Part shown: positions 911 through 57,011 of the stretch, piece by piece | Position numbering within the stretch: the first letter of the stretch is position 1 | Layout of the letters: each line of letters opens with the position of its first letter | From: Nitratireductor mangrovi | GTDB taxonomy: Bacteria; Pseudomonadota; Alphaproteobacteria; Rhizobiales; Rhizobiaceae | DNA length: 64,000 bases | NCBI RefSeq assembly: GCF_007922615.2 | Contig: NZ_CP042301.2 | Coordinates: 4,791,326 to 4,855,325 of the forward strand | Direction: 5' to 3' | Made by a program: the position numbers and the translations under genes | Notes under the pieces: generated by a model | Seen by the model: the letters and a program-made list of their open reading frames with translations, nothing else | The model's database searches: none | Told to the model about the DNA's origin: nothing

Positions 911-935
911 GGTCTCGACCGCCGGTCCCGCGGCG

Positions 936-22559: not shown

Positions 22560-22569
22560 AGCCCGCCCG

Positions 22570-23097: not shown

Positions 23098-23152
23098 CCA
23101 GTGAGAGGCGGGGCCGCGACGGCCTCGCCTCCCGTTCCTCTTTCGCTGTAGT

Positions 23153-24232: not shown

Positions 24233-24272
24233 CGTTTCCTCCCTTTCTTCGTTGACGGCGCGGTTCGTACAG

Positions 24273-27732: not shown

Positions 27733-27781
27733 GCGATGCGGTCTCGGCGTCCTGTCTTCGTTCGGTTCGGCACGACGCCGG

Positions 27782-28111: not shown

Positions 28112-28126
28112 TCGAAAACCTCCCTA

Positions 28127-30681: not shown

Positions 30682-30700
30682 CGGTCGCTCTCCCCGTCTG

Positions 30701-31987: not shown

Positions 31988-32463
31988 TGCCGTCCGCCGT
32001 TGAAATATCCGCGCAGTACCCGGACGAGCATGAGCGCAGCGCCCAACGGCATGAAGACCGAGAACAGCCAGAGAGGCATGTTGAGCAGCCCCGAGGTCAA
32101 TCCCAGCCCTGCCTGTCCGGCGACGAGATGGACGCCGCTGTAGACGACCCCGAGAAGGAAGCCGGCTATGACGAGCAATCTCACGAGTTCCGAGACCTTG
32201 CGCGGGGCAGCCGGCAACAGCGGAATGAAGACGGAGACGCCGAGGTGCGCCATCGCACGTTCGGCGGTCGCGATGCCGAGCCAGTAGAAGGCCACGCTTC
32301 CCAGGATCATGAGTTCGAAGAGTTCGCCGATCGCATGATTGAAGACATAGCGAGCAGCGATGCTGACCGTGTTGAGGGCGAGCAGGACCAGCAGCGCGGC
32401 TTCGAGCACCCTGTGCTCGATGACCACTGCGGTCGGGATGCGCGGCTGTCGCTGTTCGGCCAT
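31984..32463 (-). CDS. TRAP transporter small permease (DctQ type), second system
   Basis: This 159-aa four-helix membrane protein has the DctQ layout: a first helix after RVLEAALLVLLALNTVSI, RYVFNHAIGELFELMILG, and TAERAMAHLGVSVFIPLLP. It lies between receptor and large permease genes with a 4-bp overlap downstream. Confidence 0.9.
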   Translation of the reverse strand: MAEQRQPRIPTAVVIEHRVLEAALLVLLALNTVSIAARYVFNHAIGELFELMILGSVAFYWLGIATAERAMAHLGVSVFIPLLPAAPRKVSELVRLLVIAGFLLGVVYSGVHLVAGQAGLGLTSGLLNMPLWLFSVFMPLGAALMLVRVLRGYFNGGRQ

Positions 32464-32512
32464 GAGGATCTCGCGGAAGGTACGGCGCGGCCGGGGCCGC
32501 GCCGGTTCCGTG

Positions 32513-33529: not shown

Positions 33530-33606
33530 CTCTGCTTCCTCCGCTGTGTAGCTTCTTTTCTTGCAGAAGGCGAACGCCGGCCCGAGCTCCATAGGGCCGG
33601 CGCCGC

Positions 33607-34242
33607 TTACGTCCCGGCGCCAGGACCGGGAATTCCCAGTCCAGCCAGGATAAATTCAAAAATCGCCTGCTCCGCTTCTTCGCGGTCGCTGTAAAGCGAA
33701 AGGTCCCACCAGCGCAGGGCGACGATGGCGGGAACGAAAGATAAAAGGTTCGCCGAAATCCGCGTGTTGGAAAAACGCAGCCGCCCGCCATCGGCGACGT
33801 AGCCGTCGAGCAGTTGCTGGAACTGTCGGATGAAGCGCGCCACCGCCTTCAGGACGAGCTTGCGGTCAGGTTTCTGAAGCGCATGGACCTCGTTGTAGAG
33901 GAGAACCAGTTCGTCACGGTGATCGAACATCACCGCCATGATGCCTCTCAGCGCATTGATCAGGCGCGCGTAGGGGTCCACGTATTCGCGCATCACGCCG
34001 TCGACGCTCGCTGAATAGAGCCCCACAAGGTGCTCGCAGACCAGATAGAGGATGTCGTCCTTGGAGCGAACGTAGTTGTAGATGTTGCTCTGAGTGACCC
34101 CCGCTTCCTCGGCAATGCAGCGCGTAGTCGCGCCGTGGAATCCTTTGCGACGGAATACCGCGATCGCGGCGCGGACAATGCGTTCGCGTGTCTCGATGAC
34201 TCGCGTCGTGTCCTGAACCTGCGCGTTGATCGCCCGCTGCAC
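33607..34242 (-). CDS. TetR-family regulator
   Basis: This 211-aa regulator has an N-terminal TetR helix-turn-helix: RERIVRAAIAVFRRKGFHGA, then EEAGVTQSNIYNYVRSKDDI. A C-terminal ligand domain of the TetR_C_17-like type follows (LYLVCEHLVGLYSASVDGVM). It stands at the head of the 13.9-kb minus-strand run that includes both TRAP systems and CoA enzymes. Two palindromes 38-80 bp before its start codon are likely operators. By analogy with PaaR/FadR-type TetR proteins the inducer could be a CoA ester of the substrate, which is inference. Confidence 0.87.
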   Translation of the reverse strand: MQRAINAQVQDTTRVIETRERIVRAAIAVFRRKGFHGATTRCIAEEAGVTQSNIYNYVRSKDDILYLVCEHLVGLYSASVDGVMREYVDPYARLINALRGIMAVMFDHRDELVLLYNEVHALQKPDRKLVLKAVARFIRQFQQLLDGYVADGGRLRFSNTRISANLLSFVPAIVALRWWDLSLYSDREEAEQAIFEFILAGLGIPGPGAGT

Positions 34243-39870: not shown

Positions 39871-40013
39871 CACAGGATTGGCCTTCGAGAAGCGCTTGGA
39901 ACCGCTGATTTACGGCACCTTGATGATAGCTTTGGGGCCTTGCGCCTTGCACCCATGTTCTCTCATTGTTCTGCAGCGGCAACTCTTCGTACGCCGCAGG
40001 ACAAGGAGAGACC

Positions 40014-41390
40014 ATGGATCTTCAGCATCCGAAGATAGAGATGTTGCCGGTGCGGGCGCTACGCCCCTATGCCGGCAACGCCCGCACCCATTCGAAGATG
40101 CAGATCGGCCAGATCGCTGACAGTATCCGACGCTTCGGCTTCACCAATCCCGTCCTGGTCAGTGACGAGAACGAGATCGTCGCCGGTCATGGACGGGTCC
40201 TTGCAGCCAGGCAACTCGGTATGGCGGATGTACCGGTGTTGCGGCTGTCGCATCTGTCGGCGGAAGAGCGACGAGCCTACGTGCTGGCCGACAACAAGCT
40301 GGCTCTCAATGCGGGCTGGGATCAGGAACTCCTGGCACTTGAGCTGCAGGCACTGATCGACCTTGAGTTCGATGTCACCATCACCGGATTCTCGCTGGCC
40401 GAGATCGACCTGACGCTCGATCACGCGCGGGAGGCCTCTGCGGCTTCCCCTGACGGCGCCGATATGGTTCCGCCCTTGCCGGTGCAAGCGGCCACCAAAA
40501 CCGGTGATCTGTGGCAGCTCGGGCGCCATCGGCTTTTATGTGGCGATGCTCGGGCGTCTGCGGACGTCGGGCGTCTGGTGGGGGCAGGGCGGGTCGACCT
40601 GATCTTCACCGATCCGCCCTACAACGTGCCGATCCAGGGTCACGTCGGCGGGCTTGGCCGTACGCGTCATCGCGAGTTCGCCTTTGCCTCGGGTGAGATG
40701 AGCGAGGCGGAGTTCACCGAGTTCCTGCGATCCACGCTCGGCAATGCCGCTTCCGTCGCGAAGGACGGTGCGATTGCCTTCGTCTGCATGGACTGGCGTC
40801 ACATGCGCGAGTTGGCGGCGGCGGCGGATGGCTTGTTCTCGGAGCTGAAGAATCTGTGCGTCTGGAACAAGACCAATGGCGGCATGGGCAGCTTCTACCG
40901 CTCCAAGCATGAGCTGGTCTTCGTTTACAAGATTGGCACGGCGCCACACACCAATGCCTTCGGCCTTGGCGAGACCGGTCGCTATCGCACCAATGTTTGG
41001 GACTATGCCGGTATCAGCAGTCTCGGCGCCAGCCGGGCTGACGAGCTCGCCATGCATCCGACCGTCAAGCCGGTCGCCATGATTGCCGATGCGATCCGCG
41101 ACTGTTCGAAGCGAGGCGAGGTCGTGCTCGATGTGTTCGGCGGATCCGGCTCGACGCTGATTGCGGCCGAGAGCTGCGGGCGTGAGGCTCGCCTCATCGA
41201 GTTCGACGCCATCTACTGCGACACGATCGTCAGCCGCTGGCAGACCTACACCGGCAAGCGGGCAACGCTTGTCGGCGACGGGCGCTGCTTCGAGGAGATC
41301 GCAGCCGAGCGGCTGGGACAGGCTGACCAGAATAGTGCGTCAACCAAGCCGGTGCGCGCTAGTGGCCTCCGCCGAGGGCGCCACGCATGA
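40014..41390 (+). CDS. Orphan ParB-domain / beta-class adenine DNA methyltransferase, copy 1
   Basis: This 458-aa protein joins an N-terminal ParB/sulfiredoxin-like nuclease domain (LRPYAGNARTHSKMQIGQI, VAGHGRVLAARQLGM) to a DNA methyltransferase. Motif IV, TDPPYNVPIQG, comes before motif I, FGGSGSTLIAAE, the order of the CcrM-like beta class. No cognate restriction gene is adjacent. GGACAAGGAGAGACC precedes the ATG at 40014. It overlaps the DUF5681 gene by 4 bp. A near-identical copy is at 47393-48769. Such ParB-MTase fusions are typical of phage-like and integrative elements. Confidence 0.9.
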   Translation: MDLQHPKIEMLPVRALRPYAGNARTHSKMQIGQIADSIRRFGFTNPVLVSDENEIVAGHGRVLAARQLGMADVPVLRLSHLSAEERRAYVLADNKLALNAGWDQELLALELQALIDLEFDVTITGFSLAEIDLTLDHAREASAASPDGADMVPPLPVQAATKTGDLWQLGRHRLLCGDARASADVGRLVGAGRVDLIFTDPPYNVPIQGHVGGLGRTRHREFAFASGEMSEAEFTEFLRSTLGNAASVAKDGAIAFVCMDWRHMRELAAAADGLFSELKNLCVWNKTNGGMGSFYRSKHELVFVYKIGTAPHTNAFGLGETGRYRTNVWDYAGISSLGASRADELAMHPTVKPVAMIADAIRDCSKRGEVVLDVFGGSGSTLIAAESCGREARLIEFDAIYCDTIVSRWQTYTGKRATLVGDGRCFEEIAAERLGQADQNSASTKPVRASGLRRGRHA

Positions 41391-42406
41391 GCGACGATGG
41401 AGAAAAGTCCAGTCAAGAGCCGAAGCCCATTGCCGACAAGGCCGTCGCCAGAGCGAAGGAGCAGATCATCGGGGGCGTTGGCTACAGGAACCCACCGAAG
41501 GCAACACGCTTCCAGAGGGGGCAGTCAGGCAATCCCGGCGGGCGGCCCCGTGCACCCAAGGCCGAAGGCCTGACGCTCGAAGATCAGCCGCTCTTGCAGG
41601 CCGTGCACGATCAGGCTGCCAAACCGATCAGAATGAGGGAAGGGGATACCGTCCTGGAAGTCCCCACGCGAGAAGCCGTTACCCGCTCGGTGATGGTGGC
41701 TGCGCTCAAGGGCAATGCTCGCTCACAGGGCCTTGCACTCGACCTGATCCGGTCTGCCGACATCCAGCGGGCGCGCGACAGGTCGAAACGGCAGGCCTTC
41801 GCACATGAGTTCAAACGCGTGCAGACGAGACGGTTCGAACGAGCAGTCGAGGCCGGCGAGGAGACGAGACGGATCCTTCCGCATCCCGACGATATCGTCA
41901 TCGACGACGACTACGGCTACCATTTTGCAGGCCCTGTCGACGAAGCCGAGCTGTGCAAGGTCGAACAGATAGTCCGCTACCGTGACGCACTGATCATGCA
42001 GGACGTGCTGGACGAGCGGCTGGCGGCGCGCCAGGCAAGCCAAACCGAGCAACCGGACAGGTCCGAGCAATCAGGCGCCTTGCTCTTTGCCAGTGTTCTC
42101 GACTCGACCTTGCCGTCACGCTTCCGTCTTGATGACACCACCATCATCCTTCGGCAGTTGCGCTACGAAGCGGTCAATCTGCGACAGCTTCTCAAGGACA
42201 CCTATCGCGCCTGGAAGGCAGCCGGCGCCTCGGCCAAGCGTGGCGCACGGTTCGCCGACCTGCAGTCAGCGCACAAACTGCTAACGAACGTATTCGACTT
42301 CGTGCAGGCAGTTCGCGAAGGCCGCATTGATGTCGATGCAATTGCCCGCGGTGAGTTTGACGAGACGCCGCGTCCATTCATTCGAGGCAACGGCTCGGTG
42401 GCGTAG
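41387..42406 (+). CDS. DUF5681 domain protein, copy 1
   Basis: This 339-aa protein has the DUF5681 signature near its N-terminus: GYRNPPKATRFQRGQSGNPGGRP split around residues 30-52. The rest is helical and charged with no enzyme motif I recognise. DUF5681 proteins are often found next to phage or element methylases and terminase genes. It is coupled (ATGA) to the methyltransferase gene. Copy 2 at 48766-49785 differs at nine positions by my count. Confidence 0.88.
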   Translation: MSDDGEKSSQEPKPIADKAVARAKEQIIGGVGYRNPPKATRFQRGQSGNPGGRPRAPKAEGLTLEDQPLLQAVHDQAAKPIRMREGDTVLEVPTREAVTRSVMVAALKGNARSQGLALDLIRSADIQRARDRSKRQAFAHEFKRVQTRRFERAVEAGEETRRILPHPDDIVIDDDYGYHFAGPVDEAELCKVEQIVRYRDALIMQDVLDERLAARQASQTEQPDRSEQSGALLFASVLDSTLPSRFRLDDTTIILRQLRYEAVNLRQLLKDTYRAWKAAGASAKRGARFADLQSAHKLLTNVFDFVQAVREGRIDVDAIARGEFDETPRPFIRGNGSVA

Positions 42407-42708
42407 AACCGTGAAACTAGAAGGGCAGAAACGGGGCCGATTGCGGACTGTCCGGTTCCGGCCGAAGAGTTGGGTAAGCTGACAATCCGCAGCCGACCCA
42501 ATTGCGGTCATTCCGCCTGATCTGGCGCGACCTTGAAACCCGTCATTCGAAGGTGCCTGGCCTTCGGCTTGACCGGGGCCAGATGTACGTCCGCTTTGGC
42601 AACAGAAATGTGATGGGCTGCCATTCTGCTCCAGTACAATGATTGAATTTTCTTTCGGGATGGGAAACACCTGTTAATATTCGGCCCATTGCAAAGGGGC
42701 GGGGGCAT
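42407..42708. other. Intergenic after DUF5681 copy 1
   Basis: No gene is seen. For about 50 bp after the stop the sequence still resembles the corresponding region after copy 2 (AGAAGGGCAGAAACGGGGCC is shared). GCGGACTGTCCGG at about 42445 recurs near 43273 and, slightly changed, near 49822. Confidence 0.5.
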
Positions 42709-43998: not shown

Positions 43999-44532
43999 AT
44001 GCTTCCGGAAGAGACGCTGGAACGTGAGGTCGCCGCCATCGGCGCCCTCACGCGCGCGGAACTGACCGCCCGGTGGCAGAAGGCCTATGGCTGCCTGCCA
44101 CCGAAGGGCATGAACCGTAGTCTGCTCGAACGCGCCGCTGCCTGGCATGTGCAGGCCGGTCGGCTGGGAGGGTTGTCTTCTGCGGCGCAGGCAACGCTGC
44201 GCGCAGGACAGAGGGGAGGGCGCCAGGGGCTGCGCGATCGCTCGCAGCAAGCGGATGCGTCGGCTCAGGACCGTGGCCGGGGTCATGGCGTTGGCTCTGC
44301 TGCCGGGGGCGCACCGGACCCGGAGGGTCACCGGCCATCAGCACAGGCTCGCGTAACTCCGCCGCCCGCCGTGGGCACCCGGCTGATGCGGGAGTGGAAC
44401 GGACGCATGCATGTGGTCGACGTCACCGAGCAGGGCATCCTGTTCGACGGAAAGATCTATCGGTCCTTGAGTTCCGTCGCCAAGCGCATCACCGGCGCGC
44501 ACTGGTCCGGACCGAGGTTCTTCGGGCTATGA
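43999..44532 (+). CDS. DUF2924 domain protein
   Basis: This 177-aa protein has the DUF2924 pattern: EREVAAIGALTRAELTARWQ near the N-terminus, a Gly/Gln-rich middle, and the C-terminal TRLMREWNGRMHVVDV... with SLSSVAKRITGAHWSGPRFF. It sits between DUF3489 and recombinase genes, overlapping the latter by 4 bp. An earlier TTG at 43993 overlaps the previous stop and is possible. Function unknown; always linked to this recombinase type. Confidence 0.87.
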   Translation: MLPEETLEREVAAIGALTRAELTARWQKAYGCLPPKGMNRSLLERAAAWHVQAGRLGGLSSAAQATLRAGQRGGRQGLRDRSQQADASAQDRGRGHGVGSAAGGAPDPEGHRPSAQARVTPPPAVGTRLMREWNGRMHVVDVTEQGILFDGKIYRSLSSVAKRITGAHWSGPRFFGL

Positions 44533-46265
44533 ACATGACAGCATCCCCTCGCATGCGTTGCGCGGTCTACACCCGCAAGTCGACCGAGGATGGACTGGAG
44601 CAGGAGTTCAACTCACTCGATGCCCAGCGTGAAGCCTGTGAAGCCTATATACGGTCGCAATCCTCGCTCGGCTGGAAGCTGGTGTCGGACCGCTATGACG
44701 ATGGCGGCATCTCCGGCGGCACCATGGACCGTCCTGCCCTGCAGCGGTTGCTTCAGCATATCCGCGGCGGACAGGTCGACGTGGTGGTGGTCTACAAGAT
44801 CGATCGCCTGACGCGATCGCTCTCCGACTTCGCCAGGATCGTGGACGTGTTCGATGAGGCGAAAGCCTCCTTCGTCTCCGTCACCCAGCAGTTCAACACC
44901 ACGACCTCCATGGGCAGGCTTACCCTCAATGTTCTTCTGTCATTCGCCCAGTTCGAACGCGAGGTCACGGCAGAGCGCATCCGCGACAAGATCGCGGCAT
45001 CGAAGAAGAAGGGCATGTGGATGGGCGGCGGCGTCCCGCTCGGCTATCGGGCCGAGAACCGGAAGCTGAAGATCGACGAGCAGGAAGCCGGGATCGTCCG
45101 CTTTCTGTTCAATCGTTATCTGGAACTGAAGTCTGTACGCGCCCTTGCCGCCGAGGCGAATGCGAAGCGCTTTCCTGCACGGTCCACGCGCAGACCAAAA
45201 GCCCCAGAGGAAGATAGCTTCGAGACGCCGGCCTCGTCCGGTTCGGCGGTGCGCCACTTCGGACGCGGCCCGCTCTACCACCTGCTGTCCAACCCGACCT
45301 ACATCGGCAAGGTGAGGCATCGTCAGAAGATCTATGAAGGTGAGCACGAGGCAATCATAAGCGCCGAGACTTTTGCCGCAGCGCAGGCGCTTCTCTCGGC
45401 CCAGGCGCCGGTACGCTCGTCAGCGACGAACGCCGCGGATATCCATCTTCTGACCGGCATCCTGTTCGACGAAGAGGGAACCGGCCTGCGATCGGTCCAC
45501 ACGAAGAAGGGCAATGTCCGCTACCGCTATTACGTTTCGAAGGCTTGTGTGGAGGAGCGAGGCAAGTCCGATCGAAACGGCTGGCGGCTCCCGGCACGAC
45601 AGATCGAGCAGGTGGTGGAGGACGAGCTTGCCAACATCCTGACCAATCCCCGGCGAATGTCGCATCTGATCGCGGACCAGATCCCGGCAGATCGCTTCGC
45701 CGCGGCGATCGATCAGGCATCGGCGCTTTACGCAAGCTACAAAACTTGCACTCCACAGCACCAACGCGATCTGGTCCGACAACTGTTCCCGCGGATCGAG
45801 CTGACATCCGCCAAGCTGATTCTGCGCTTCGACGCGAAGGCTCTGGCCGAACTGTTGGTCGGCAATGCTTCGGTGAGCGATGCGGAGAACGATCGGCAAC
45901 TCACTTCCATCGAACGGCCGATCTCGCTGCGCCGCCGCGGCAAGGAGACGAAGATCGTTCTAACCGACAGCTCTGGACGAACCAGCGCTCCCGACGAGAA
46001 CCTGATCCAGATTCTGCAGAAGGCGCATTCCTACCTGGCCCAGCTGACCGACGGATCCGGCCGCAGAATCTGCGAGGTGGCTGCAGCCAACGGCATCGAC
46101 CGCTCCGACTTCAGCCGCGTTTTGCGACTGGCTTTCCTCGCACCGAAGATCACAGGTCAGATTCTTTCCGGGTCCCAGCCGCCCGAACTCACGGCTCAAA
46201 AACTCTCCCGCATGCCGGAGCTTCCCCACGCTTGGTCGCAGCAGCAGAGGCTCCTCGGTTGCTGA
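44529..46265 (+). CDS. Large serine recombinase
   Basis: This 578-aa site-specific recombinase has the resolvase catalytic domain with the nucleophile Ser18 in YTRKSTED, the DAQREACEAYI helix and VYKIDRLTRSLSDFARI. A recombinase domain (GYRAENRKLKIDEQEAGIV) and a long C-terminal region follow. The zinc-ribbon cysteines of many large serine recombinases are not evident. It is translationally coupled to DUF2924. It would integrate or excise an element by cutting DNA through a phosphoserine. It is intact by length and motif. Confidence 0.92.
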   Translation: MNMTASPRMRCAVYTRKSTEDGLEQEFNSLDAQREACEAYIRSQSSLGWKLVSDRYDDGGISGGTMDRPALQRLLQHIRGGQVDVVVVYKIDRLTRSLSDFARIVDVFDEAKASFVSVTQQFNTTTSMGRLTLNVLLSFAQFEREVTAERIRDKIAASKKKGMWMGGGVPLGYRAENRKLKIDEQEAGIVRFLFNRYLELKSVRALAAEANAKRFPARSTRRPKAPEEDSFETPASSGSAVRHFGRGPLYHLLSNPTYIGKVRHRQKIYEGEHEAIISAETFAAAQALLSAQAPVRSSATNAADIHLLTGILFDEEGTGLRSVHTKKGNVRYRYYVSKACVEERGKSDRNGWRLPARQIEQVVEDELANILTNPRRMSHLIADQIPADRFAAAIDQASALYASYKTCTPQHQRDLVRQLFPRIELTSAKLILRFDAKALAELLVGNASVSDAENDRQLTSIERPISLRRRGKETKIVLTDSSGRTSAPDENLIQILQKAHSYLAQLTDGSGRRICEVAAANGIDRSDFSRVLRLAFLAPKITGQILSGSQPPELTAQKLSRMPELPHAWSQQQRLLGC

Positions 46266-46941: not shown

Positions 46942-47392
46942 GTCCTATTAAGGACTGCTCCGAGGTCCGACCTGTTTGGTGGCAGGAGCCTCGTCGCGTT
47001 TCCGGTCATCCGTATGTGAGGAAGTTCGTTGGTCGTGTTTCGAGGGTGCGCGCGGGTGTGCAGGCGGATCGCGTCTGCCAAGGTTCCGTCGTGTGTCTCG
47101 ACGGCCTTGTTGCGGGCTCCGAGCCCGCTCGATCTTTCGCGAGCTGCCGATCACGCGCTTGTGATCGGTCATCGGCAGCGCCAAAGCTTGCCGTTCAAAA
47201 ATGCCAAATCCTTGAAGCTCCTTTCAAGCCCCTCTTGAAGGGGTTTTTGAAGGCTGGGCGTTCAAAAGTGCACAGAATCCAGCATTTGCAATGGTTGCAA
47301 GCCCATTTGAGGACCTTGCAAGACGGTCGCTGTTCACCCAATGTTCTCATTCGTGCGTCCCTGGGAACGCGATGCGAGGACAAGGAGAGACC
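46942..47392. other. Intergenic before methyltransferase copy 2
   Basis: No gene is supported. GTGATCGGTCATCGGCAG around 47160 and a cluster of TTCAAA/TTGAAG words (47190-47275) resemble the TTCAAA-rich stretch before copy 1 (39838-39880). An intrinsic terminator-like hairpin lies at 47229-47248. Confidence 0.4.
47229..47248 (+). terminator. Intrinsic terminator-like hairpin
   Basis: CCCCT pairs with AGGGG around CTTGA and is followed by TTTTT. It lies 145 bp before methyltransferase copy 2, on the same strand, so it would isolate that operon from upstream transcription or act as an attenuator. Confidence 0.55.
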
Positions 47393-48769
47393 ATGGACCT
47401 TCACCACTCGAACATCGAGATCATGCCGGTAGCGGGTCTGCGCCCCTATGCGCAGAACGCGCGTACGCACTCCAGGAAGCAGATCGGCCAGATCGCTGAC
47501 AGCATCCGACGCTTCGGCTTCACCAATCCCGTCCTGGTCAGTGACGAGAACGAGATCGTCGCCGGTCATGGACGGGTCCTTGCAGCCAGGCAACTCGGTA
47601 TGGCGGATGTACCGGTGTTGCGGCTGTCGCATCTGTCGGCGGAAGAGCGACGAGCCTATGTGCTGGCCGACAACAAGCTGGCTCTCAATGCGGGCTGGGA
47701 TCAGGAACTCCTGGCACTCGAACTGCAGGCACTGATCGACCTTGAGTTCGATGTCACCATCACCGGCTTCTCGCTGGCCGAGATCGACCTGACGCTCGAT
47801 CACGCGCGGGAGGCCTCTGCGGCTTCCCCCGACAGCGCCGATCTGGTTCCGCCCTTGCCGGGACAAGCGGCCACCAAAACCGGTGATCTGTGGCAACTCG
47901 GACGCCATCGGCTTTTATGTGGCGATGCTCGGGCGTCTGCAGACGTCGAGCGTCTGGTGGGGGCAGGGCGGGTCGATCTGGTCTTCACCGATCCGCCCTA
48001 CAACGTGCCGATCCAGGGTCACGTCGGCGGCCTTGGCCGCACGCGTCATCGCGAGTTCGCCTTTGCCTCGGGTGAGATGAGCGAGGCGGAGTTCACCGAG
48101 TTCCTGCGATCCACGCTCGGCAATGCCGCTTCCGTCGCGAAGGACGGTGCGATTGCCTTCGTCTGCATGGACTGGCGTCACATGCGCGAGTTGGTGGCGG
48201 CGGCGGATGGCTTGTTCTCGGAGCTGAAGAACCTGTGCGTCTGGAACAAGACCAATGGCGGCATGGGCAGCTTCTACCGCTCCAAGCATGAGCTGGTCTT
48301 CGTTTACAAGATCGGCACGGCGCCACACACCAATGCCTTCGGCCTTGGCGAGACCGGTCGCTATCGCACCAATGTTTGGGACTATGCCGGTATCAGCAGT
48401 CTCGGCGCCAGCCGGGCTGACGAGCTCGCCATGCATCCGACCGTCAAGCCGGTCGCCATGATTGCCGATGCGATCCGCGACTGTTCGAAGCGAGGCGAGG
48501 TCGTACTCGACATCTTTGGCGGGTCCGGCTCGACGCTGATTGCCGCCGAGAGCTGCGGGCGTGAGGCTCGCCTCATAGAGTTCGACGCCATCTACTGCGA
48601 CACCATCATCCGCCGCTGGCAGACCTACACCGGCAAGCGGGCAACGCTTGTCGGCGACGGGCGCTGCTTCGAGGAGATCGCGGCCGAGCGGCTGGGACAG
48701 GCTGACCAGAATAGTGCTTCAACCAAATCGGTGCGTGGTAGTGGCCTCCGCCGAGGGCGCCACGCATGA
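47393..48769 (+). CDS. Orphan ParB-domain / beta-class adenine DNA methyltransferase, copy 2
   Basis: This is a 458-aa near-copy of the protein at 40014-41390 with the same ParB domain, TDPPYNVPIQG and FGGSGSTLIAAE motifs. By my count about 10 of the first 33 residues differ from copy 1, but only about 11 of the remaining 425. The same GGACAAGGAGAGACC precedes the ATG. It overlaps the DUF5681 gene by 4 bp and is followed by the ATPase/nuclease cargo. Both copies look intact. Confidence 0.9.
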   Translation: MDLHHSNIEIMPVAGLRPYAQNARTHSRKQIGQIADSIRRFGFTNPVLVSDENEIVAGHGRVLAARQLGMADVPVLRLSHLSAEERRAYVLADNKLALNAGWDQELLALELQALIDLEFDVTITGFSLAEIDLTLDHAREASAASPDSADLVPPLPGQAATKTGDLWQLGRHRLLCGDARASADVERLVGAGRVDLVFTDPPYNVPIQGHVGGLGRTRHREFAFASGEMSEAEFTEFLRSTLGNAASVAKDGAIAFVCMDWRHMRELVAAADGLFSELKNLCVWNKTNGGMGSFYRSKHELVFVYKIGTAPHTNAFGLGETGRYRTNVWDYAGISSLGASRADELAMHPTVKPVAMIADAIRDCSKRGEVVLDIFGGSGSTLIAAESCGREARLIEFDAIYCDTIIRRWQTYTGKRATLVGDGRCFEEIAAERLGQADQNSASTKSVRGSGLRRGRHA

Positions 48770-49785
48770 GCGACGGTGGAGAGAAGTCCAGTCAAGAGCC
48801 GAAGCCCATTGCCGACAAGGCCGTGGCCAGAGCGAAGGAGCAGATCATCGGGGGCGTCGGCTACAGGAACCCACCGAAGGCGACACGCTTCCAGAGGGGG
48901 CAGTCGGGCAATCCCGGCGGGCGCCCCCGTGCACCGAAGGCCGAAGGCCTGACGCTCGAAGATCAGCCGCTCTTGCAGGCCGTGCACGATCAGGCTGCCA
49001 AACCGATCAGAATGAGGGAAGGGGATACCGTCCTGGAAGTCCCCACGCGAGAAGCCGTTACCCGCTCGGTGATGGTGGCAGCACTCAAGGGCAATGCTCG
49101 CTCACAGGGCCTTGCACTCGACCTGATCCGGTCTGCCGACATCCAGCGGGCGCACGACAGGTCGAAACGGCAGGCCTTCGCGCATGAGTTCAAACGCGTG
49201 CAGACGAGACGGTTCGAACGAGCAGTCGAAGCCGGCGAGGAGACGAGACGGATTCTCCCGCATCCCGACGATATCGTCATCGACGACGACTACGGCTACC
49301 ATTTTGCAGGCCCTGTCGACGAAGCCGAACTGTGCAAGGTCGAACAGATAGTCCGCTACCGTGACGCACTGATCATGCAGGACGTGCTGGACGAGCGGCT
49401 GGCGGCGCGCCAGGCAAGCCAAACCGAGCAACCGGACAGGTCCGAGCAATCAGGTGCCTTGCTCTTTGCCAGTGTTCTCGACTCGACCTTGCCGTCACGC
49501 TTCCGTCTTGATGACACCACCATCATCCTTCGGCAGACGCGCTACGAAGCGGTCAATCTGCGACAGCTGCTCAAGGACACCTATCGCGCCTGGAAAGCAG
49601 CCGGCGCCAAAGACAAACGTGGCGTTCGGTTTACCGATCTGCAGTCAGCGCACAAACTGCTAACGAACGTAATCGACTTCGTGCAGGCAGTTCGCGAAGG
49701 CCGCATTGATGTCGATGCAATTGCCCGCGGTGAGTTTGACGAGACGTCGCGTCCATTCATTCGAGGCAACGGCTCGGTGGCGTAG
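48766..49785 (+). CDS. DUF5681 domain protein, copy 2
   Basis: This 339-aa protein is a near-copy of the one at 41387-42406; I count nine differences, mostly after residue 260 (for example GAKDKRGVRFTDL here against GASAKRGARFADL). The DUF5681 N-terminal signature RFQRGQSGNPGGRP is unchanged. It ends 171 bp before the end of the convergent ATPase gene. Confidence 0.88.
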   Translation: MSDGGEKSSQEPKPIADKAVARAKEQIIGGVGYRNPPKATRFQRGQSGNPGGRPRAPKAEGLTLEDQPLLQAVHDQAAKPIRMREGDTVLEVPTREAVTRSVMVAALKGNARSQGLALDLIRSADIQRAHDRSKRQAFAHEFKRVQTRRFERAVEAGEETRRILPHPDDIVIDDDYGYHFAGPVDEAELCKVEQIVRYRDALIMQDVLDERLAARQASQTEQPDRSEQSGALLFASVLDSTLPSRFRLDDTTIILRQTRYEAVNLRQLLKDTYRAWKAAGAKDKRGVRFTDLQSAHKLLTNVIDFVQAVREGRIDVDAIARGEFDETSRPFIRGNGSVA

Positions 49786-49956
49786 AACCGAGGAATCAGA
49801 AGGGCAGAAACGGGGCCGTGACCGGACCGTCCGTTTTCGGGCCCGACGAAACGGTAGCTGCCGTTCGTTGCGGAGCGCGTACATGACTGCTGTCGATTCC
49901 AAGTTCATGCACCCACAGCTTCGGCGTGAGCGGAGTCGCTTGCTATCCGTCAGTTC

Positions 49957-52356
49957 TCAAGCCACCCAGTCGAGCTTAAGTGCTCCACAACGGCAAGCGA
50001 TCTTCTTATCGCCGGGGATAACGGCATCGGCGCGAACCGGCTGAGCGCACACATTGCAGATGAACAGCGAAGCGAGCTTTTCGATATCCTCAAAAAGCAC
50101 GTCAACATCCTCGGTAGAAATCGGGTCAGGATTGTCGTGCGAATCGACGTTCGCGATCAGCGCAGATCCGGCCAGGTCAGAAAATATCGGCAGTTCAGAC
50201 GTTGCGCGGGATTTTGATTTGAGCGTCGAGCGAAGCTGACTCAGCAGTTCGTCCGGCATGCGCTTTTCGTTGACGTCGTTGTAGCGGAAGGCAACTCGCA
50301 CCTGAAGCGCGTGGCATATCTGCTTGAGCAGGGATTCCAGAAGCTTGCGCAGGTCATTCGTCACATCATGCTTGCCACGCTTCTTTTCGATCAGTGCCCG
50401 GAAGGTCGCCGGGCTGTCGTCCAGCATGATGCCGTTCTCGTTGTCGGCGAGCACCTCCTTGAAAAGCCATCCGCTCTCCGCAAGCTCCTTCTTGATGAGG
50501 TCGAACCAGATCGCCTCATGGGTCAGCAGGATGATCTGCCAGTCGGCGAACTCTTCCTTTAGAAGACGCAGCAGCCGGCGGCGGTGACGGATATCGAAGC
50601 TTGTGACGATGTCATCCAGCACCATGAAGCGGGCGTGCTTGTTGAAGATGCGCGCATTCGAGAGAAACAGGACGATGCCGAGGCTGTTGATGTGACTCTC
50701 GCTCAGATATTTGTGGGGCGGGTGCGTCACCTTCCCATGAAATGAGAACTCGAACTCGACGCCTTCTTCGCCCACCATCCGAAGACGGACCTTGTCGACA
50801 CTCTCGTTCGGATGCAGTCTACCATAGAAGCGTCCGACATCTTCGCTGACCGTATCCAGCACATCCTGAAGCGCATCGTTCTGAACTTTGATGAAGGCCT
50901 CGAACATCGCCGAAAGCGTCAGAATCTGCTGCTCGTATTGACTGCGCTTCTTGTGATTCTCCCGATAATCACGCAGATGCTGCTCCAGCTGTTGCAGCGT
51001 CGTGATAAGCTCGGTGATGCTCTTCTCCTGTTCAGTCAGTTCAAGCTTACCTGCCTCTTCTTTGGCCTGTTCTGCCGATGATTTCACCGCGTCCGACAAG
51101 GCCGCCAGATTGGCAGCAAGAGCCTCGTCCGGCTCATAGGCATCGAGGGTCTCGAAGCGATCGCGGACCTGCTTATACAATGTCCGAAGTGGGTCTGTGG
51201 CCGCGCGCAACTCGAACAAAAAAGTCGAGAACTGCGGGATATCGGCGAACTCCTTCGCGACTTCGCCGGCGTGCTTGCCAACCGTTGCCACGGCTTCGAG
51301 CAGCCTTTCCTTTGCGCCTTTGACCGCATCGTGCTGTTGCTGGAGCGTGGCGATCTCCAGCAGCCGGGCTTTGACCTCGACCTTGAGGGTTTCAAGATCG
51401 TAGTCGGTCAGGCAGAAAGGGCACTGTGCATCCGTGAACAGCCCCTCTTCGAGGACGTTCTTGCCCCGAGAAAGGAAGTCGCCGATGCGCAGTTTTCTGA
51501 CATTCGCCCGTTCTTCGGTCAGCCTTGCATAAGGTGCGGCGAACGCATCCAGGGCCGACTGCACCTCAGCGATCTCTGTCTTAAGGGTTGAGCAGTGCCG
51601 CTCCAGTTGCTTTAGCTTCTCAGCGGCCTGAATTTTCTTGGGATCGGCTGCACGGCTGCGCAGTTCCTGAATAGCCGCCACGTATGAGGCCGCGTCATTG
51701 ATCGCCGTTTCGAGACCGTAGGGCTTCGTCCGTTCGGAAGCAATTTCGTGGAATCGGTCGAACTCGGAGACCACTTCGCCGACAAGGTCGACCATCTTCC
51801 CCTGCAATGATTCCATCTGCCCTTTGGCGCTGGCATAGCCCGGGTCCCGCTGCAGGGCGTTGCGGGTCTGCTGGATCGCGTCGCGAAACTGGATGATCTC
51901 ATCGTAACCGATGATTGAGGCGATCGCCTTGCGCTTGTCGCTCTTGGTGCTGTCGAGGAATCGAGTGATCTGGGAATGACGCAAGAAAATCCGGTCATCC
52001 TTCAGGCGCTCAACAAGGCCGGGGAAATCATCGCCGTCGCACGCCAGCGACGTTTTCAGGTCCGCGGAAAGTGTCTTCGTTCCCGATCTATCCTTGCCGT
52101 CAAACTGAATCGTGACACTGCTGCCATCCTGTTCATCGCAGTGGACGTGGCGCAACGCCGCGTGCCGGCAGTCTTCACGCCACAGATGGCCAACTCTGTC
52201 CATGATGAACCACTCCAGCGCATCGGTGATGGTGCTCTTGCCGGAAGCATTCTCGCCATAAATGGCGATGCTCTTATGGTGCTTTGTGAAGTCTAGGGAG
52301 AGTTCGAATCGCGCCCCCCGAAACCTGGCGGCGTGGAGCTGCCGAAGCCTCGTCAT
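49957..52356 (-). CDS. Zinc-hook SMC/RecF-like ATPase (candidate defence protein)
   Basis: This 799-aa ABC-class ATPase has Walker A YGENASGKST (residues 33-42), long coiled coils, a CPFC zinc hook at 312-315, coils back, an SMC-type signature LSESHINSLG (551-560), Walker B FMVLDDIVTSFD (577-588) and switch His613 in LLTHE. A C-terminal zinc ribbon follows (C767, C770, C788, C790). The plan is that of Rad50/RloC-like proteins but the zinc ribbon tail is unusual. It is the second gene of an operon with a 70-aa protein (4-bp overlap) and divergent from a GIY-YIG nuclease gene. A role in nucleic-acid sensing or anti-phage defence is inferred. Confidence 0.85.
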   Translation of the reverse strand: MTRLRQLHAARFRGARFELSLDFTKHHKSIAIYGENASGKSTITDALEWFIMDRVGHLWREDCRHAALRHVHCDEQDGSSVTIQFDGKDRSGTKTLSADLKTSLACDGDDFPGLVERLKDDRIFLRHSQITRFLDSTKSDKRKAIASIIGYDEIIQFRDAIQQTRNALQRDPGYASAKGQMESLQGKMVDLVGEVVSEFDRFHEIASERTKPYGLETAINDAASYVAAIQELRSRAADPKKIQAAEKLKQLERHCSTLKTEIAEVQSALDAFAAPYARLTEERANVRKLRIGDFLSRGKNVLEEGLFTDAQCPFCLTDYDLETLKVEVKARLLEIATLQQQHDAVKGAKERLLEAVATVGKHAGEVAKEFADIPQFSTFLFELRAATDPLRTLYKQVRDRFETLDAYEPDEALAANLAALSDAVKSSAEQAKEEAGKLELTEQEKSITELITTLQQLEQHLRDYRENHKKRSQYEQQILTLSAMFEAFIKVQNDALQDVLDTVSEDVGRFYGRLHPNESVDKVRLRMVGEEGVEFEFSFHGKVTHPPHKYLSESHINSLGIVLFLSNARIFNKHARFMVLDDIVTSFDIRHRRRLLRLLKEEFADWQIILLTHEAIWFDLIKKELAESGWLFKEVLADNENGIMLDDSPATFRALIEKKRGKHDVTNDLRKLLESLLKQICHALQVRVAFRYNDVNEKRMPDELLSQLRSTLKSKSRATSELPIFSDLAGSALIANVDSHDNPDPISTEDVDVLFEDIEKLASLFICNVCAQPVRADAVIPGDKKIACRCGALKLDWVA

Positions 52357-52565
52357 AGAAAATCCTGCTTATCGGTGCCGGAGGGTGCTACCGACGCGCG
52401 GTCGGCTTCGAGGCTGCGCAACAAATTCGTCTTCGTCAGCTTACCTTCATCCCGAAGCGCCTTGACGGCCGCAACGGTTTTCGGTTCCAGATCGGGGCTC
52501 TGTGCCATTTGGTCGATAAAGGCGGTTACCACCTCGTCTGCGGACCTGATATTGTCACCTATCAT
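52353..52565 (-). CDS. Small helical protein coupled to the ATPase
   Basis: This 70-aa acidic protein (MIGDNIRSADEVVTAFIDQM...) is predicted helical and matches no family I know. GGGGGAACAATA precedes its ATG at 52565, and its stop overlaps the ATPase start by 4 bp, so the two are co-translated. It may be an adaptor or an inhibitor of the ATPase. It starts 22 bp from the divergent nuclease gene. Confidence 0.7.
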   Translation of the reverse strand: MIGDNIRSADEVVTAFIDQMAQSPDLEPKTVAAVKALRDEGKLTKTNLLRSLEADRASVAPSGTDKQDFL

Positions 52566-52587
52566 TATTGTTCCCCCGAGGTCACCC

Positions 52588-53055
52588 GTGCGGATCGTTT
52601 TCTCAGAAAACTACAACTTACGCGAACAGGAGATCAAGTTTGTGCAGGGGGTTGTGGGGTTATACTTCATTTATCTGGAGCGGCTGGCGGTCCCATATCC
52701 GTTCAGCTCCTCTCGTCTCATCTATATCGGGATGAGCGAATCGAGGCAGAACAGCATCGGGTTGCGGCTTCGCGGCCACCTTACCGGGCAGTCAGGGAAT
52801 CTCGGAATTCGCAATTACGCAGCCCGCCACTCGACCAAATTCTCATACTACTCGCTCGACGTGCTACGGCGCGGCGGAACGGGCGACTTGTTCCAACTCG
52901 AAAGCTTCTTTCTGAGGGATTTTCAGGCCCACCTGGGGTGCTTCCCAATCTGTAATGGCCAAGCGGGCATCGAGCGGGCGGACGTGCCATTGGTTCCTCT
53001 GGAGCTGAGAGTGGACTGGCGCTTTTTCGATGAATCGTCGGCGACAGAAACTTAG
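52588..53055 (+). CDS. GIY-YIG nuclease-like protein
   Basis: This 155-aa protein has all landmarks of a GIY-YIG catalytic domain: GLYFIYL (the GIY strand), RLIYIGMS (the YIG strand), RLRGHL with the conserved Arg, LESFFLRDF with the catalytic Glu, and FPICNGQ with the Asn. The GTG at 52588 is chosen because GAGG lies six bases before it; there is no ATG near. The open frame runs further upstream but only as antisense to the small gene. It is a single-domain nuclease, divergent from the zinc-hook ATPase operon. A joint defence role is inferred. Confidence 0.78.
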   Translation: MRIVFSENYNLREQEIKFVQGVVGLYFIYLERLAVPYPFSSSRLIYIGMSESRQNSIGLRLRGHLTGQSGNLGIRNYAARHSTKFSYYSLDVLRRGGTGDLFQLESFFLRDFQAHLGCFPICNGQAGIERADVPLVPLELRVDWRFFDESSATET

Positions 53056-53311
53056 TCGACACGCTTCGTTTCCAGTTTAAGACGTTCCGAAAATCGGGAA
53101 GCACGTCAATTGGATGGATGCCCTGTGGCGCGCGCTCAAACCATTGTATGCGTGCCGCCGCAAATCGTTCCCGAAGTTGAACCGCCGTGACCGGACAAAA
53201 AATTCTCTTACGTTTCGGGAACGCGGCACCGGGTCCACTCATCCAATGGGCGAACGGAGCGATTGCCCCATTACACCGACCGGCCGTCCTGCCGCCATAA
53301 GGAGTTCGATT
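53056..53311. other. Intergenic before folE
   Basis: No intact gene is seen. On the minus strand, about 53060-53210, a stretch reads like coding sequence (RERFAAARIQWFERAPQGIH) without a start or recognisable domain, so it may be a gene remnant marking the right edge of the mobile region. Confidence 0.35.
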
Positions 53312-54031
53312 GTGCTCAATAAGATGATCATTCCCGACCATACCTGCGACAGCGTTCCGGTCTCTGACCGCATTCGCGCACGTTTGAAGGCTGCCGGACA
53401 CACCTTCCGGGCCAATGACAACATCGCGGCTTTCATCGAGGATGGTGAACTGGAAGGACTTTGCCTGGAAGTCGAGGACCGGATGAATGCGGTGCTTGAC
53501 GCGCTAGTGATCGACACGGAGAACGATCACAACACCGTTGACACGGCGCAGCGCGTAGCGAGGATGTTTGTCGATGAGGTGTTTGGAGGACGGTATCGCC
53601 CGGCTCCGCCCGTCACCAGCTTTCCCAACGTCTCACAGCTGAATGAACTGATGATCGTCGGCCCGCTCACGGTACGCAGTGCCTGCTCCCACCATCTGTG
53701 TCCGATCATGGGAACGATGTGGATCGGCGTCCTGCCCTGCAAGGAGGCTGAACTGATCGGCCTGTCCAAGTTCGCCCGCCTCTGCGACTGGATCATGAGC
53801 CGGCCGCAGATTCAGGAAGAGGCCGTGATCATGTTGGCCGATGAACTTGAAAAACGCATCCGGCCCGAAGGGCTGGCAATCGTGATGGAGGCGGACCATT
53901 TCTGCATGCACTGGCGTGGGGTCAAGGATGAGCAGCCGGTCATGACGACGTCCATCATGCGAGGCGCGTTTATGCAGAACGAGGCGCTCAGACGTGAATT
54001 TCTCGACCTGCGCAAAAGGTGCGGGGAGTGA
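53312..54031 (+). CDS. folE: GTP cyclohydrolase I
   Basis: This 239-aa enzyme converts GTP to 7,8-dihydroneopterin triphosphate, the first step of folate and pterin synthesis. The zinc/catalytic motifs RSACSHHLCPIMG and EADHFCMHWRGV are clear, and DTAQRVARMFVDE matches the family. The GTG at 53312 is preferred because GGAG lies seven bases before it; an ATG at 53324 would be too far from that site. It stands alone here, away from other folate genes except the 5-formyl-THF cyclo-ligase at 61.4 kb, and may be an extra copy carried by an accessory region. Confidence 0.87.
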   Translation: MLNKMIIPDHTCDSVPVSDRIRARLKAAGHTFRANDNIAAFIEDGELEGLCLEVEDRMNAVLDALVIDTENDHNTVDTAQRVARMFVDEVFGGRYRPAPPVTSFPNVSQLNELMIVGPLTVRSACSHHLCPIMGTMWIGVLPCKEAELIGLSKFARLCDWIMSRPQIQEEAVIMLADELEKRIRPEGLAIVMEADHFCMHWRGVKDEQPVMTTSIMRGAFMQNEALRREFLDLRKRCGE

Positions 54032-54154
54032 CCTCGATCAGAGATTCAAGATGCTATCCGATAAGTCTTGCCGGTGCGCTTGGCAGAGGCGACTTCCCGA
54101 TGCCGGGGAACGCGATGAAAGGCACTGGTGCTATATAACTCCGAGGAGGGACGA

Positions 54155-54862
54155 ATGCATACGGCCGTAGAGCAACTAGCATCTGCTTTAACGGAAGATG
54201 TTCCGGATACCGAACTGGCCAGGCGTGCAGCACAAAAGGACGGTGCCGCCTTCGAGGCGATCATGCGTCGTCACAACCAGCTCCTGTTTCGCACGGCGCG
54301 CGGTATCGTCCGCAGCGACGGTGAAGCAGAAGACGTCGCACAGGAAGCATGGATGCAGGTTTGGCGCTCTCTCTCAGGCTTTCGGTCAGAAAGCAAGCTC
54401 TCCACCTGGCTGGTTCGCATCACCGTCAACGAGGCGCTGGGTCGGTTGCGCGGGAAGAGATCGCAGATAATTCCACTGGAGATAGCCATGATGTCGTCCG
54501 ACAACGACACACGGAAGGCGCTGACGGAGGCGCCGGATCGCGGACCGGAGCATTCGGTCGAACGGTCCCGGCTCCGCGCTCTGATAGAGGCGCGCATCGC
54601 GGTTCTGCCCGAAGTATTTCGCAGCGTCTTCATGCTTCGCGCAATCGAGGAGATGAGCGTCGATGAGGTGGCGGAGGTGTTGGACATTCCCGCAGCCACA
54701 GTCCGCACACGCTATTTCCGCGCCCGTGCCCTTCTGCGCGAAAGCCTTGCGCAGGAGATGGATGTCGCCATCGGCGAGGCCTTCAGTTTTGCCGGTGAGC
54801 GCTGTGATCGCGTCGTCGCGGGCGTCATGGCTCGAGCCCGGGTGGAAGGTCTTTGCAAGTGA
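54155..54862 (+). CDS. ECF-type RNA polymerase sigma factor
   Basis: This 235-aa sigma-70 family protein has region 2 (LLFRTARGIVRSDGEAEDVAQEAWMQVWRSL in parts) and region 4 with VFMLRAIEEMSVDEVAEVLDI and TVRTRYFRARALL. GGAGGGACGA precedes the ATG at 54155. No anti-sigma gene is adjacent. The next gene is a Rieske-FAD oxidoreductase on the same strand, 63 bp away, so the sigma factor may control a small redox or stress regulon. ECF subgroup not determined. Confidence 0.88.
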   Translation: MHTAVEQLASALTEDVPDTELARRAAQKDGAAFEAIMRRHNQLLFRTARGIVRSDGEAEDVAQEAWMQVWRSLSGFRSESKLSTWLVRITVNEALGRLRGKRSQIIPLEIAMMSSDNDTRKALTEAPDRGPEHSVERSRLRALIEARIAVLPEVFRSVFMLRAIEEMSVDEVAEVLDIPAATVRTRYFRARALLRESLAQEMDVAIGEAFSFAGERCDRVVAGVMARARVEGLCK

Positions 54863-54925
54863 GGCTTTTTGCCGATCAGGAAACATCTTTGCCACGCAGG
54901 GCGTCGATATGAAGGGAGACTTGGC

Positions 54926-56446
54926 ATGGCCAATACGCAGGACGCGGATAGGGGCCACGATCTTACCCAGGGGGTGACACTGGCTGATTTCAACGGCCGA
55001 CAGATGTTGCGCGGGCATGTGGGGAAAGCCTCCGTCCTGCTTGCACGCGTCGGTGAAGAGGTGCTGGCAGTCGATGCCAGTTGCACGCACTACGGAGGCG
55101 CGCTGGATCAGGGCTTGATCACCGAGGAAACGGTGCGCTGCCCGCTGCATCACGCCTGTTTCTCGCTGCGCACCGGCGAAGCTCTCGGTGCTCCTGCCTT
55201 TGACCCGTTGTCATGCTGGAAGGTGGTGCGAGATAGCGAGCGGATTGTCGTTCGCGAGAAGTCAGCGACCCCGCCGCGCAAGTTTCCCAGCACTCACGAA
55301 CCGCGTGCCATTGTGATCATTGGCGCGGGGGCTGCCGGTTTTGCATGTGCCGAGATGCTGCGCAGAAGGGGCTATGAGGGAGAGCTCACCCTGCTGAGTG
55401 CTGACAAGGACGCGCCTTACGACCGGCCGAACCTGTCCAAGGACTATCTGGCCGGCGATGCGCCGCCCGAATGGATGCCGCTCAGGCCGGATGAGTTTTA
55501 CCAGAAATACGACATCGATCTGCAACTGGGGGTGTCGGTTTCCGCCATCGACGTGCAGGCGCGCCGCGTAGTGCTGGAGGGCGGGCGTGTTCTGGAGTTC
55601 GACCGCCTCCTGATCGCGACGGGAGCGGAACCGGTTCGCCCGCCGATCCCCGGCGCCGACCTGCCGCATGTATTCACGTTACGCAGCTTTGCTGACGGTC
55701 GCGCGCTTTCCGCGGCGGCGGAGAAAGCAAAGTCAGCCGTGGTTCTGGGGTCGGGTTTTATTGGTCTCGAGACAGCGGCCGCGCTCAGGCAGCGTGGGCT
55801 GAACGTGCATGTGGTGACGCTGGATGCCCGTCCGCTTGAGAAGGTGCTTGGGCCGGCACTGGGCGATTTCATTGCCGGGTTACACGAAGGTCATGGTGTC
55901 ACATTCCATATGCGGACTTCGATCAAGACGATCTCCGCCAATGCGGTGACGCTCTCATCAGGTGCCAAGATTGAGGCGGACTTGGTTGTCATGGGCGCAG
56001 GTGTTCGCCCGCGCACCACACTGGCGGAGAAGGCCGGGCTGTCAGTCGACAACGGGGTTCTCGTTGATGAGCGGCTTCAGACGTCTGTTCCCGGCATCTA
56101 CGCAGCCGGCGACGTGGCGCGATGGCCAGGCCCGCAGCACACCGAAACAATGCGCGTCGAACATTGGGTTGTGGCGGAGCGCCAGGGGCAGGTGGTTGCC
56201 GCAAACATGCTCGGGGACGACAGCCCATTTGGCGACACGCCTTTTTTCTGGAGTACACATTACGATGTCACCATTCGCTATGTGGGTCATGCCGAAGACT
56301 GGGATGTTGCGGCCGTCGATGGCGATGTTTCGTCATGCGATGCCAGCATTAGCTACCGGCGGGACGGGCAAACGCTGGCTGTTGCCACGCTGGGGCGCGA
56401 TATGGAGGCGCTGACCAGAAGGCGGCACCTGCCCGCAGCCGAATGA
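54926..56446 (+). CDS. Rieske-type FAD-dependent pyridine nucleotide-disulfide reductase (AIFM3-like)
   Basis: This 506-aa protein fuses an N-terminal Rieske 2Fe-2S domain (C53-T-H55, C72-x-x-H75) to a ferredoxin reductase-type flavoprotein. FAD binding is at IIGAGAAGFACAE (about 132-144), NAD binding at VVLGSGFIGLETAAAL, and the C-terminal VYAAGDVA-like motif is GIYAAGDVARW. The ATG at 54926 follows AAGGGAGACTTGGC. It is close to the AIFM3/rubredoxin-reductase-type family and probably passes electrons from NADH to a small redox partner not encoded nearby. Confidence 0.88.
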   Translation: MANTQDADRGHDLTQGVTLADFNGRQMLRGHVGKASVLLARVGEEVLAVDASCTHYGGALDQGLITEETVRCPLHHACFSLRTGEALGAPAFDPLSCWKVVRDSERIVVREKSATPPRKFPSTHEPRAIVIIGAGAAGFACAEMLRRRGYEGELTLLSADKDAPYDRPNLSKDYLAGDAPPEWMPLRPDEFYQKYDIDLQLGVSVSAIDVQARRVVLEGGRVLEFDRLLIATGAEPVRPPIPGADLPHVFTLRSFADGRALSAAAEKAKSAVVLGSGFIGLETAAALRQRGLNVHVVTLDARPLEKVLGPALGDFIAGLHEGHGVTFHMRTSIKTISANAVTLSSGAKIEADLVVMGAGVRPRTTLAEKAGLSVDNGVLVDERLQTSVPGIYAAGDVARWPGPQHTETMRVEHWVVAERQGQVVAANMLGDDSPFGDTPFFWSTHYDVTIRYVGHAEDWDVAAVDGDVSSCDASISYRRDGQTLAVATLGRDMEALTRRRHLPAAE

Positions 56447-56459
56447 CGGCCATCGGCTC

Positions 56460-57011
56460 CTATTGCCCTGGGTAGCGGACACGCAAATCGGGATCGATCA
56501 CGGCACCATCGGACAAGTGAGCGCGGACGCACTTTCCGATGTCCATGATGTGAAAGACGCTAATGCCGCGTGCGATGAGGTGGTCGGCGATAATCCGCCG
56601 GTGGCATCGCCACCAGACCGCCTCCGCACACATGAGGGCGCATCTATGTTCCCGACAAAGACCGAGAAGTTGAAGAAGAGCAGATTGAAACTCGTCCGTG
56701 CGCGCGAAATCGGCGTAGTTGTGAAAGCTTCTGTTGTTCCAGAAACCGTTTTCTTCAGACGGGATGTCCGCAACCTTTGATCGAAGACCGCCAAGGGAGG
56801 CGCAGTGGGTGTAGCCGATCCCATGGGGCTGCAGCTCCGGCGTGAGAACTTTCGCATTGAAAGACGGATTGGATCGTGATCCCGGAAACCGGCGCACGTC
56901 GACGACAAGATCGACGGAGGTTTCCAGAAGCATCTGCTTGAAGGTCGGCAGTGTGCGGTTTGAGTGACCGATCGTGAAAGCCGCCGAACCAGTCTGGACT
57001 GCCTCAATCAT
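56460..57011 (-). CDS. DUF488 family protein
   Basis: This 183-aa protein has the DUF488 signature FTIGHSNRTLPTFKQML, VDVRRFPGSRSNPSFN and LMCAEAVWWRCHRRIIAD. The family is small, widespread and without a settled biochemical role; the CAE...CHR motif is its usual conserved core. It overlaps the DUF2945 gene by 8 bp (the end of that gene runs into this start), so they are an operon on the minus strand. Confidence 0.87.
   Translation of the reverse strand: MIEAVQTGSAAFTIGHSNRTLPTFKQMLLETSVDLVVDVRRFPGSRSNPSFNAKVLTPELQPHGIGYTHCASLGGLRSKVADIPSEENGFWNNRSFHNYADFARTDEFQSALLQLLGLCREHRCALMCAEAVWWRCHRRIIADHLIARGISVFHIMDIGKCVRAHLSDGAVIDPDLRVRYPGQ

Follow-up and report, generated by a model that had tools for sequence, protein, structure and literature searches.

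A zinc-hook ATPase, a small partner protein and a GIY-YIG nuclease form a mobile three-gene unit that is probably directed against invading DNA

Within a stretch of 64,000 nucleotides from Nitratireductor mangrovi (contig NZ_CP042301.2, positions 4,791,326 to 4,855,325; hereafter the window), the open reading frames (ORFs) reveal three neighbouring genes at 49957-53055, encoding a zinc-hook ATPase, a small protein and a GIY-YIG nuclease. Gene order, conservation, co-occurrence, domain identities and mobile settings are matters of observation, and there is next to no doubt that the three genes belong together as a real unit. From its mobility, sporadic distribution and neighbours, we consider the best explanation, somewhat beyond an even chance, to be a self-contained, horizontally transferred three-protein anti-invader system. 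The trio is probably a so far unnamed system attacking invading DNA, present in distantly related microbes. Its components are the following.

49957..52356, minus strand: zinc-hook coiled-coil ABC ATPase of 799 residues, candidate sensor or motor, with no internal stop
52353..52565, minus strand: 70-residue partner gene, first gene of the operon, overlapping the ATPase start by 4 base pairs (bp; ATGA)
52566..52587, no strand: divergent intergenic space of 22 bp (28-29 bp in 15 of 17 relatives)
52588..53055, plus strand: single-domain GIY-YIG nuclease of 155 residues with a GTG start and core residues fixed in its relatives

An earlier note, made from the sequence alone, had described an intact 799-residue ATPase with a CPFC hook and a C-terminal zinc ribbon, a 70-residue partner and a GIY-YIG gene diverging across 22 bp, and these coordinates and residues hold. 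The nuclease is read from GTG 52588, the position at which its relatives begin too; a longer ORF of the same strand (52333-53055) passes antisense through the 70-residue gene. No consensus promoter turned up in a scan of the 1 kb surrounding the divergent starts. With starts only 22-29 bp apart and no space between them for two ordinary promoters, expression of the two arms may well be coupled.

The co-occurrence of the three genes in other genomes, proposed by the earlier note as a check, was borne out. A scan with the nuclease alignment, covering a single genome of each species, gave 17 loci, and in 17/17 the ATPase adjoins the nuclease and a small ORF stands at the expected place, although contig ends truncate the ATPase in L004, L011 and L018. 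The divergent gap is 42 bp in L016, a Planctomycetota metagenome-assembled genome. Gene order is rearranged, with the three-gene set retained, in L018, where nuclease, small gene and ATPase are co-oriented on a contig binned as Nanoarchaeota, and in L041, a divergent relative with the same co-oriented order (identity of 26% for the ATPase, 41% for the nuclease and 35% for the small protein). The L018 contig is short (1-3883) and its trio-like genes have as neighbour a protein of some 600 residues that looks ATP-binding; its binning may be wrong. Nuclease and ATPase are also adjacent in L065 and L066, where the small ORF was not extracted separately.

These locus searches started from the nuclease; the two-sided test is provided by genome samples of the order and of the class, both counting the window's genome among their positives. 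The nuclease was found in 3/397 genomes of the order, with the ATPase at 1270-1360 bits in the same three, and in 2/385 genomes of the class, with the ATPase at 500 bits or above in the same two. Distant ATPases alone (75-120 bits) occur in 14 further genomes of the order sample (including G540 and G684, whose loci were not inspected) and in 5 of the class sample. Evolutionary distances of ATPase and nuclease are correlated (r 0.887, n 19; 0.731, n 17, without L041 and L016), as are those with the small gene (0.80-0.84, n 16 and 14), the near copy L003 being left out; 0/5000 permutations reached the observed correlations, which common descent alone would also yield. The ratio of nonsynonymous to synonymous substitution rates lies between 0.02 and 0.63 over the 18 values computed. 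Within 5.5 kb, no other cluster appears in more than 7 of up to 40 loci once antisense ORFs that overlap the trio are set aside.

The ATPase combines a Rad50-type head with features of its own, given below with their conservation over 74 sequences, window included, counted in the rows readable at each position.

52234..52257, minus strand: Walker A, residues 34-41 (G34, G39, K40 and S41 in 74/74)
51412..51423, minus strand: CPFC zinc hook, residues 312-315 (C312-P313-x-C315 in 74/74)
50611..50616, minus strand: Walker B D581-D582, which reads LDD and not LDE or LDQ (70/70 readable rows of 74)
50062..50403, minus strand: C-terminal helical domain, residues 652-765, with R670xxxE674xxxK678 and S739-H740 and no Arg 5-7 residues before H740
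49987..50058, minus strand: C-terminal zinc ribbon, C767, C770, C788 and C790 (66/66, 65/65, 64/67 and 65/67)

In the structure model the hook is flanked by long helices (239-303 and 321-403), and the predicted local distance difference test (pLDDT) falls below 50 at residues 738-742. Pfam matches are SMC_N and AAA_23, and structural comparison of the model places the head closest to Rad50 and SMC rather than to RecF in particular, the other part of the SMC/RecF-like label given earlier. A sequence search of the PDB with the tail gave no match. Whether the ATPase belongs to a housekeeping family was another point put forward for checking. It is not the cell's RecN, RecF or SMC-like protein, which have separate loci in the window's genome: RecN (2047605) and RecF (4602141), both above their cut-offs, and a 1152-residue SMC-like ORF near 338187, for which no SMC family search was made.

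Over the 120 listed of the 206 nuclease relatives found, G21, G24, Y26, Y46, G48, R60, H64, E105 and N123 are fixed in 120/120. Six of them (Y26, Y46, G48, R60, E105 and N123) we take to be the defining residues of the GIY-YIG core, and one is the candidate catalytic glutamate.

52900..52902, plus strand: codon of E105 (E in 120/120 listed nucleases)

The AlphaFold2 model (pLDDT 88.6, predicted TM-score 0.86) shows the beta-beta-alpha-beta-alpha arrangement of the GIY-YIG fold, and its VIA alignment is topped by GIY-YIG enzymes, the UvrC mutants Y29F and N88A being named there.

The 70-residue protein, a candidate counterpart of LmuC by the place of its gene, has no Pfam or PADLOC match (PADLOC models of 2023 throughout) at E up to 1. 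Across the loci read, the small protein measures 61-78 residues and is 18-49% identical to the window copy; the identities of L016 (22%) and L018 (18%) are so low that these two ORFs were matched mainly by place. In most loci its gene is co-directional with the ATPase and overlaps or abuts it rather than the nuclease, and from this layout we take its product to be a putative accessory subunit of the ATPase rather than an antitoxin of the nuclease. An ORF of 58-80 residues also lies directly upstream of a related ATPase in 7 of 20 distant loci showing no GIY-YIG gene (L032, L033, L034, L037, L040, L073 and L076; ATPases of 789-821 residues with a CPxC hook), one of these pairs being carried by a Hymenobacter plasmid. 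Five such ORFs, when aligned, are only 14-26% identical to the window's protein, so that it is their place and length that make common descent likely. The distant ATPases have no constant partner among the ORFs compared; their partners vary. DarT, considered as an alternative effector beside the L032 ATPase, was rejected, its own NADAR antitoxin being present. On the conjugative plasmid of L033 (6804-13233), the small gene and hooked ATPase are followed by a 1240-residue TPR-GreAB-C-PIN type protein with a PIN domain.

The mobile region postulated earlier around the trio is supported by a direct repeat of 2,465 bp (39998-42461 and 47377-49840, 95.7% identical), one copy of which the trio abuts, and by a serine recombinase. 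Each copy consists of a ParB-N6/N4 methyltransferase and DUF5681, and a DUF2924 gene lies with the recombinase between the copies.

44394-46265: serine recombinase, between the repeat copies
48766-49785: DUF5681 gene, between the methyltransferase (end 48769) and the ATPase

The G+C content of 0.55-0.58 over the trio, against 0.60-0.65 upstream (47000-49500) and 0.58-0.59 just downstream, adds weak support for mobility. The flanks at 22000-34000 and 53060-56460 have only short matches to three genomes of the same genus. Elsewhere, an Aliiroseovarius plasmid (L031) carries the divergent trio beside TniQ/TniB genes. Neighbours were tallied as 135 ORFs of 140-1100 residues within 5 kb of 18 loci, L018, L031, L041 and the window being left out. 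The best 25 of 129 Pfam families include resolvases (3), relaxases (3), coupling proteins (2), Mu-type transposase C-termini (2), ResIII helicases (3), DarT (2) and a terminase. Among the best 25 of 194 PADLOC families, matches are mostly single ORFs and comprise type III and type I restriction-modification (R-M), AbiEi/AbiEii, SoFic, DISARM DrmD, BREX BrxH and Hachiman HmaA. The immediate neighbour of L066 is a type I R-M locus, and that of L010 a type III R-M locus. No match came from three further long neighbours, two of L012 and one of L014.

In the mechanism that we propose, the Rad50-like ATPase would dimerise through its zinc hook and, in complex with the 70-residue accessory subunit, would inspect DNA for ends or for other structures characteristic of phages or plasmids. 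Once engaged, it would recruit or license the small GIY-YIG nuclease, which would then cut DNA. No DNA-binding domain is evident in the nuclease itself, and 155 residues leave little space for one, so that aiming should come from its partners. The outcome might be anti-phage or anti-plasmid, through cutting of the invader only or through killing of the cell. This would be the logic of Mre11-Rad50 (SbcCD) with Mre11 swapped for a GIY-YIG enzyme, or that of the Lamassu sensor, which works with other effectors (PMC10586767). On a broader scale, we give an even chance to the view that the small protein and the hooked, ribbon-bearing ATPase are a widespread modular DNA sensor, armed once in this clade with GIY-YIG. 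The armed trio would then represent an unnamed class of ATPase-guided GIY-YIG interference, a Mre11-Rad50 analogue with its nuclease replaced, which would occur in Alphaproteobacteria and Planctomycetota and might extend to further phyla. Should the trio prove to be defensive, it would bring in a family whose GIY-YIG nuclease is driven by a Rad50-like machine, with the small third protein as a tractable regulatory subunit. Two questions would then become testable: by what means SMC-like sensors distinguish foreign DNA from the cell's own, and whether machines of the Mre11-Rad50 type can exchange their nuclease arm.

A number of results weigh against an anti-invader system of this composition. 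The nuclease reaches only 12.4 bits with GIY_YIG_2 (PF20815), below the Pfam gathering score of 22.4, and the 35/37 relatives matching this family at E up to 1 remain sub-threshold (best E 0.0038). A profile search of the PDB with the nuclease found nothing, and plain Foldseek listed no GIY-YIG enzyme (best E 1.5). Genome-wide ATPase searches scored two candidates per genome only. In 3/17 loci a gene is split over two frames (the ATPase in L008 and L014, the nuclease in L017), through decay or sequencing error. Viral contigs yielded no relative of nuclease or ATPase, and a phage collection, searched with the nuclease only, none either. The defence-gene neighbours, as raw tallies, are suggestive only. 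Lastly, SbcD (TIGR00619) has no match in the window's genome, while 13/14 control genomes match and 8 do so over the cut-off, which leaves room for a role in repair. Together with the Rad50-like fold, this missing SbcD would suit a DNA-repair or fork-processing complex on mobile DNA, an accessory substitute for SbcCD whose GIY-YIG enzyme cuts hairpins or ends outside any defence. We hold this to be unlikely though worth keeping in mind, given the sporadic presence of the trio in both genome samples, its occurrence on a plasmid and the mobile and defence genes that adjoin it. A selfish or stabilising module carried by mobile elements (for plasmid maintenance, as a toxin-antitoxin or in competition between elements), in which the small protein would restrain the nuclease, fits the plasmid and integrated-element settings and the tiny gene adjoining the nuclease. 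It is distinctly improbable, because the small gene pairs with the ATPase and not the nuclease in most loci and because small ORFs precede related ATPases in the 7/20 distant loci without a GIY-YIG gene. Proximity within the window is what speaks for the restriction half of an R-M system completed by the neighbouring ParB-methyltransferase, a link at which the earlier note had hinted. This is hardly credible: the methyltransferase makes up one half of a unit present twice, and no such gene recurs beside the trio; as a partner it was accordingly ruled out. Nor does the trio lie directly behind it, as had been thought, since the DUF5681 gene intervenes.

The two remaining alternatives are themselves known systems. 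Like Lamassu, DdmABC and ABC-3C, the trio is mobile and has a hooked SMC-like ATPase, a small third component and an effector nuclease, and the best PADLOC match of its ATPase is LmuB PDLC03859 (100.3 bits, E 3.9e-29). PMC10586767 describes for Lamassu/ABC-3C a small middle component, varied effectors and a general Walker B E-to-Q change, so that the trio could belong to this superfamily, with GIY-YIG as its effector and a much reduced middle component. We regard this as a minor possibility. When 190 genomes were searched together, the top four LmuB loci reached 340-452 bits and two more 120-128, against 83 for the window, whose ATPase scores 83-100 bits overall. Membership by PADLOC E-value alone was rejected, since the same LmuB model matches in 9/14 control genomes and gives 58 bits with the SMC-like protein of the window's genome; the mad3 model is no more selective, matching RecN and RecF as well as the SMC-like protein. 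The six LmuB-profile ORFs (619-663 residues) are shorter than the trio ATPase and lack its C-terminal domain and ribbon. The nuclease gene is usually divergent in the trio, its Walker B reads DD rather than E-to-Q, and GIY-YIG is absent from the effector types given in the accessible part of PMC10586767. A first tree comprised 7 of the 20 fetched nuclease-partnered loci, the window, P0178 and P0190 (gene context not seen), 16 of the 20 distant loci (L036, L039, L067 and L075 left out), the six LmuB-profile ORFs, RecN, RecF and the SMC-like protein. The second omitted P0178, P0190, RecN, RecF, L034 and two LmuB rows. In both, the nuclease-partnered ATPases form one clade (support 99/99), outside which the LmuB rows fall with 100/99 when four are included and with only 65/17 when there are six. 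PADLOC scores, LmuB controls and trees thus agree with the third point proposed for checking, that the ATPase does not clearly belong to any named defence family. Were the trio RloC/PrrC-like, the ATPase would itself be the effector through a C-terminal HEPN RNase. It is indeed a Rad50-like zinc-hook ABC protein (as in RloC) of about 800 residues with a C-terminal helical domain, where E674xxxK678 is kept in 65/65 and H740 in 65/66 readable rows. It nevertheless lacks the Rx4-6H motif by which active HEPN domains are marked (PMC3710099), residues 733-735, where the Arg could stand, being L/V, I/V/L/S and A/V/G/T and never R in readable rows, and the nuclease is a separate GIY-YIG protein. HEPN is not among the best 50 PDB rows for the whole ATPase model, a comparison that barely tested the tail after about residue 655. 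A HEPN RNase in the tail was therefore rejected, and this alternative is very improbable.

Other known systems resemble the trio in single parts. We know of no standalone GIY-YIG enzyme, be it CMoRE/PD-T4-3, the phage enzyme T4 EndoII or the R-M enzyme Eco29kI, that comes with an ABC ATPase. CMoRE/PD-T4-3 is described in PMC12923530 as a single-component system. Among the matches listed from the open-licence PMC literature, no description of an ATPase and GIY-YIG pair was found, nor anything there joining GIY-YIG with 'zinc hook'. The 2020 ABC ATPase classification of Krishnan and others, outside that scope, may already list such neighbourhoods. According to PMC10853773, the CxC ABC-ATPase/PbeABCD and DndD-DndE systems also unite an ABC ATPase with a small protein and have nucleases, including URI/GIY-YIG in some neighbourhoods, close by. 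They are tied to DndE and a CxC hook, whereas the trio has CPxC, no Dnd gene was seen recurring near it, and the PbeC profile matches its ATPase at E 1.9e-5 only. With Rad50-Mre11/SbcCD the trio shares the Rad50-type ABC head and the CPxC hook; it differs in having a GIY-YIG enzyme instead of the Mre11 phosphoesterase, an extra C-terminal helical domain, a ribbon and a 70-residue third gene. On the features tested, the trio is thus no plain member of Lamassu, RloC or SbcCD, and it may work like Lamassu and SbcCD.

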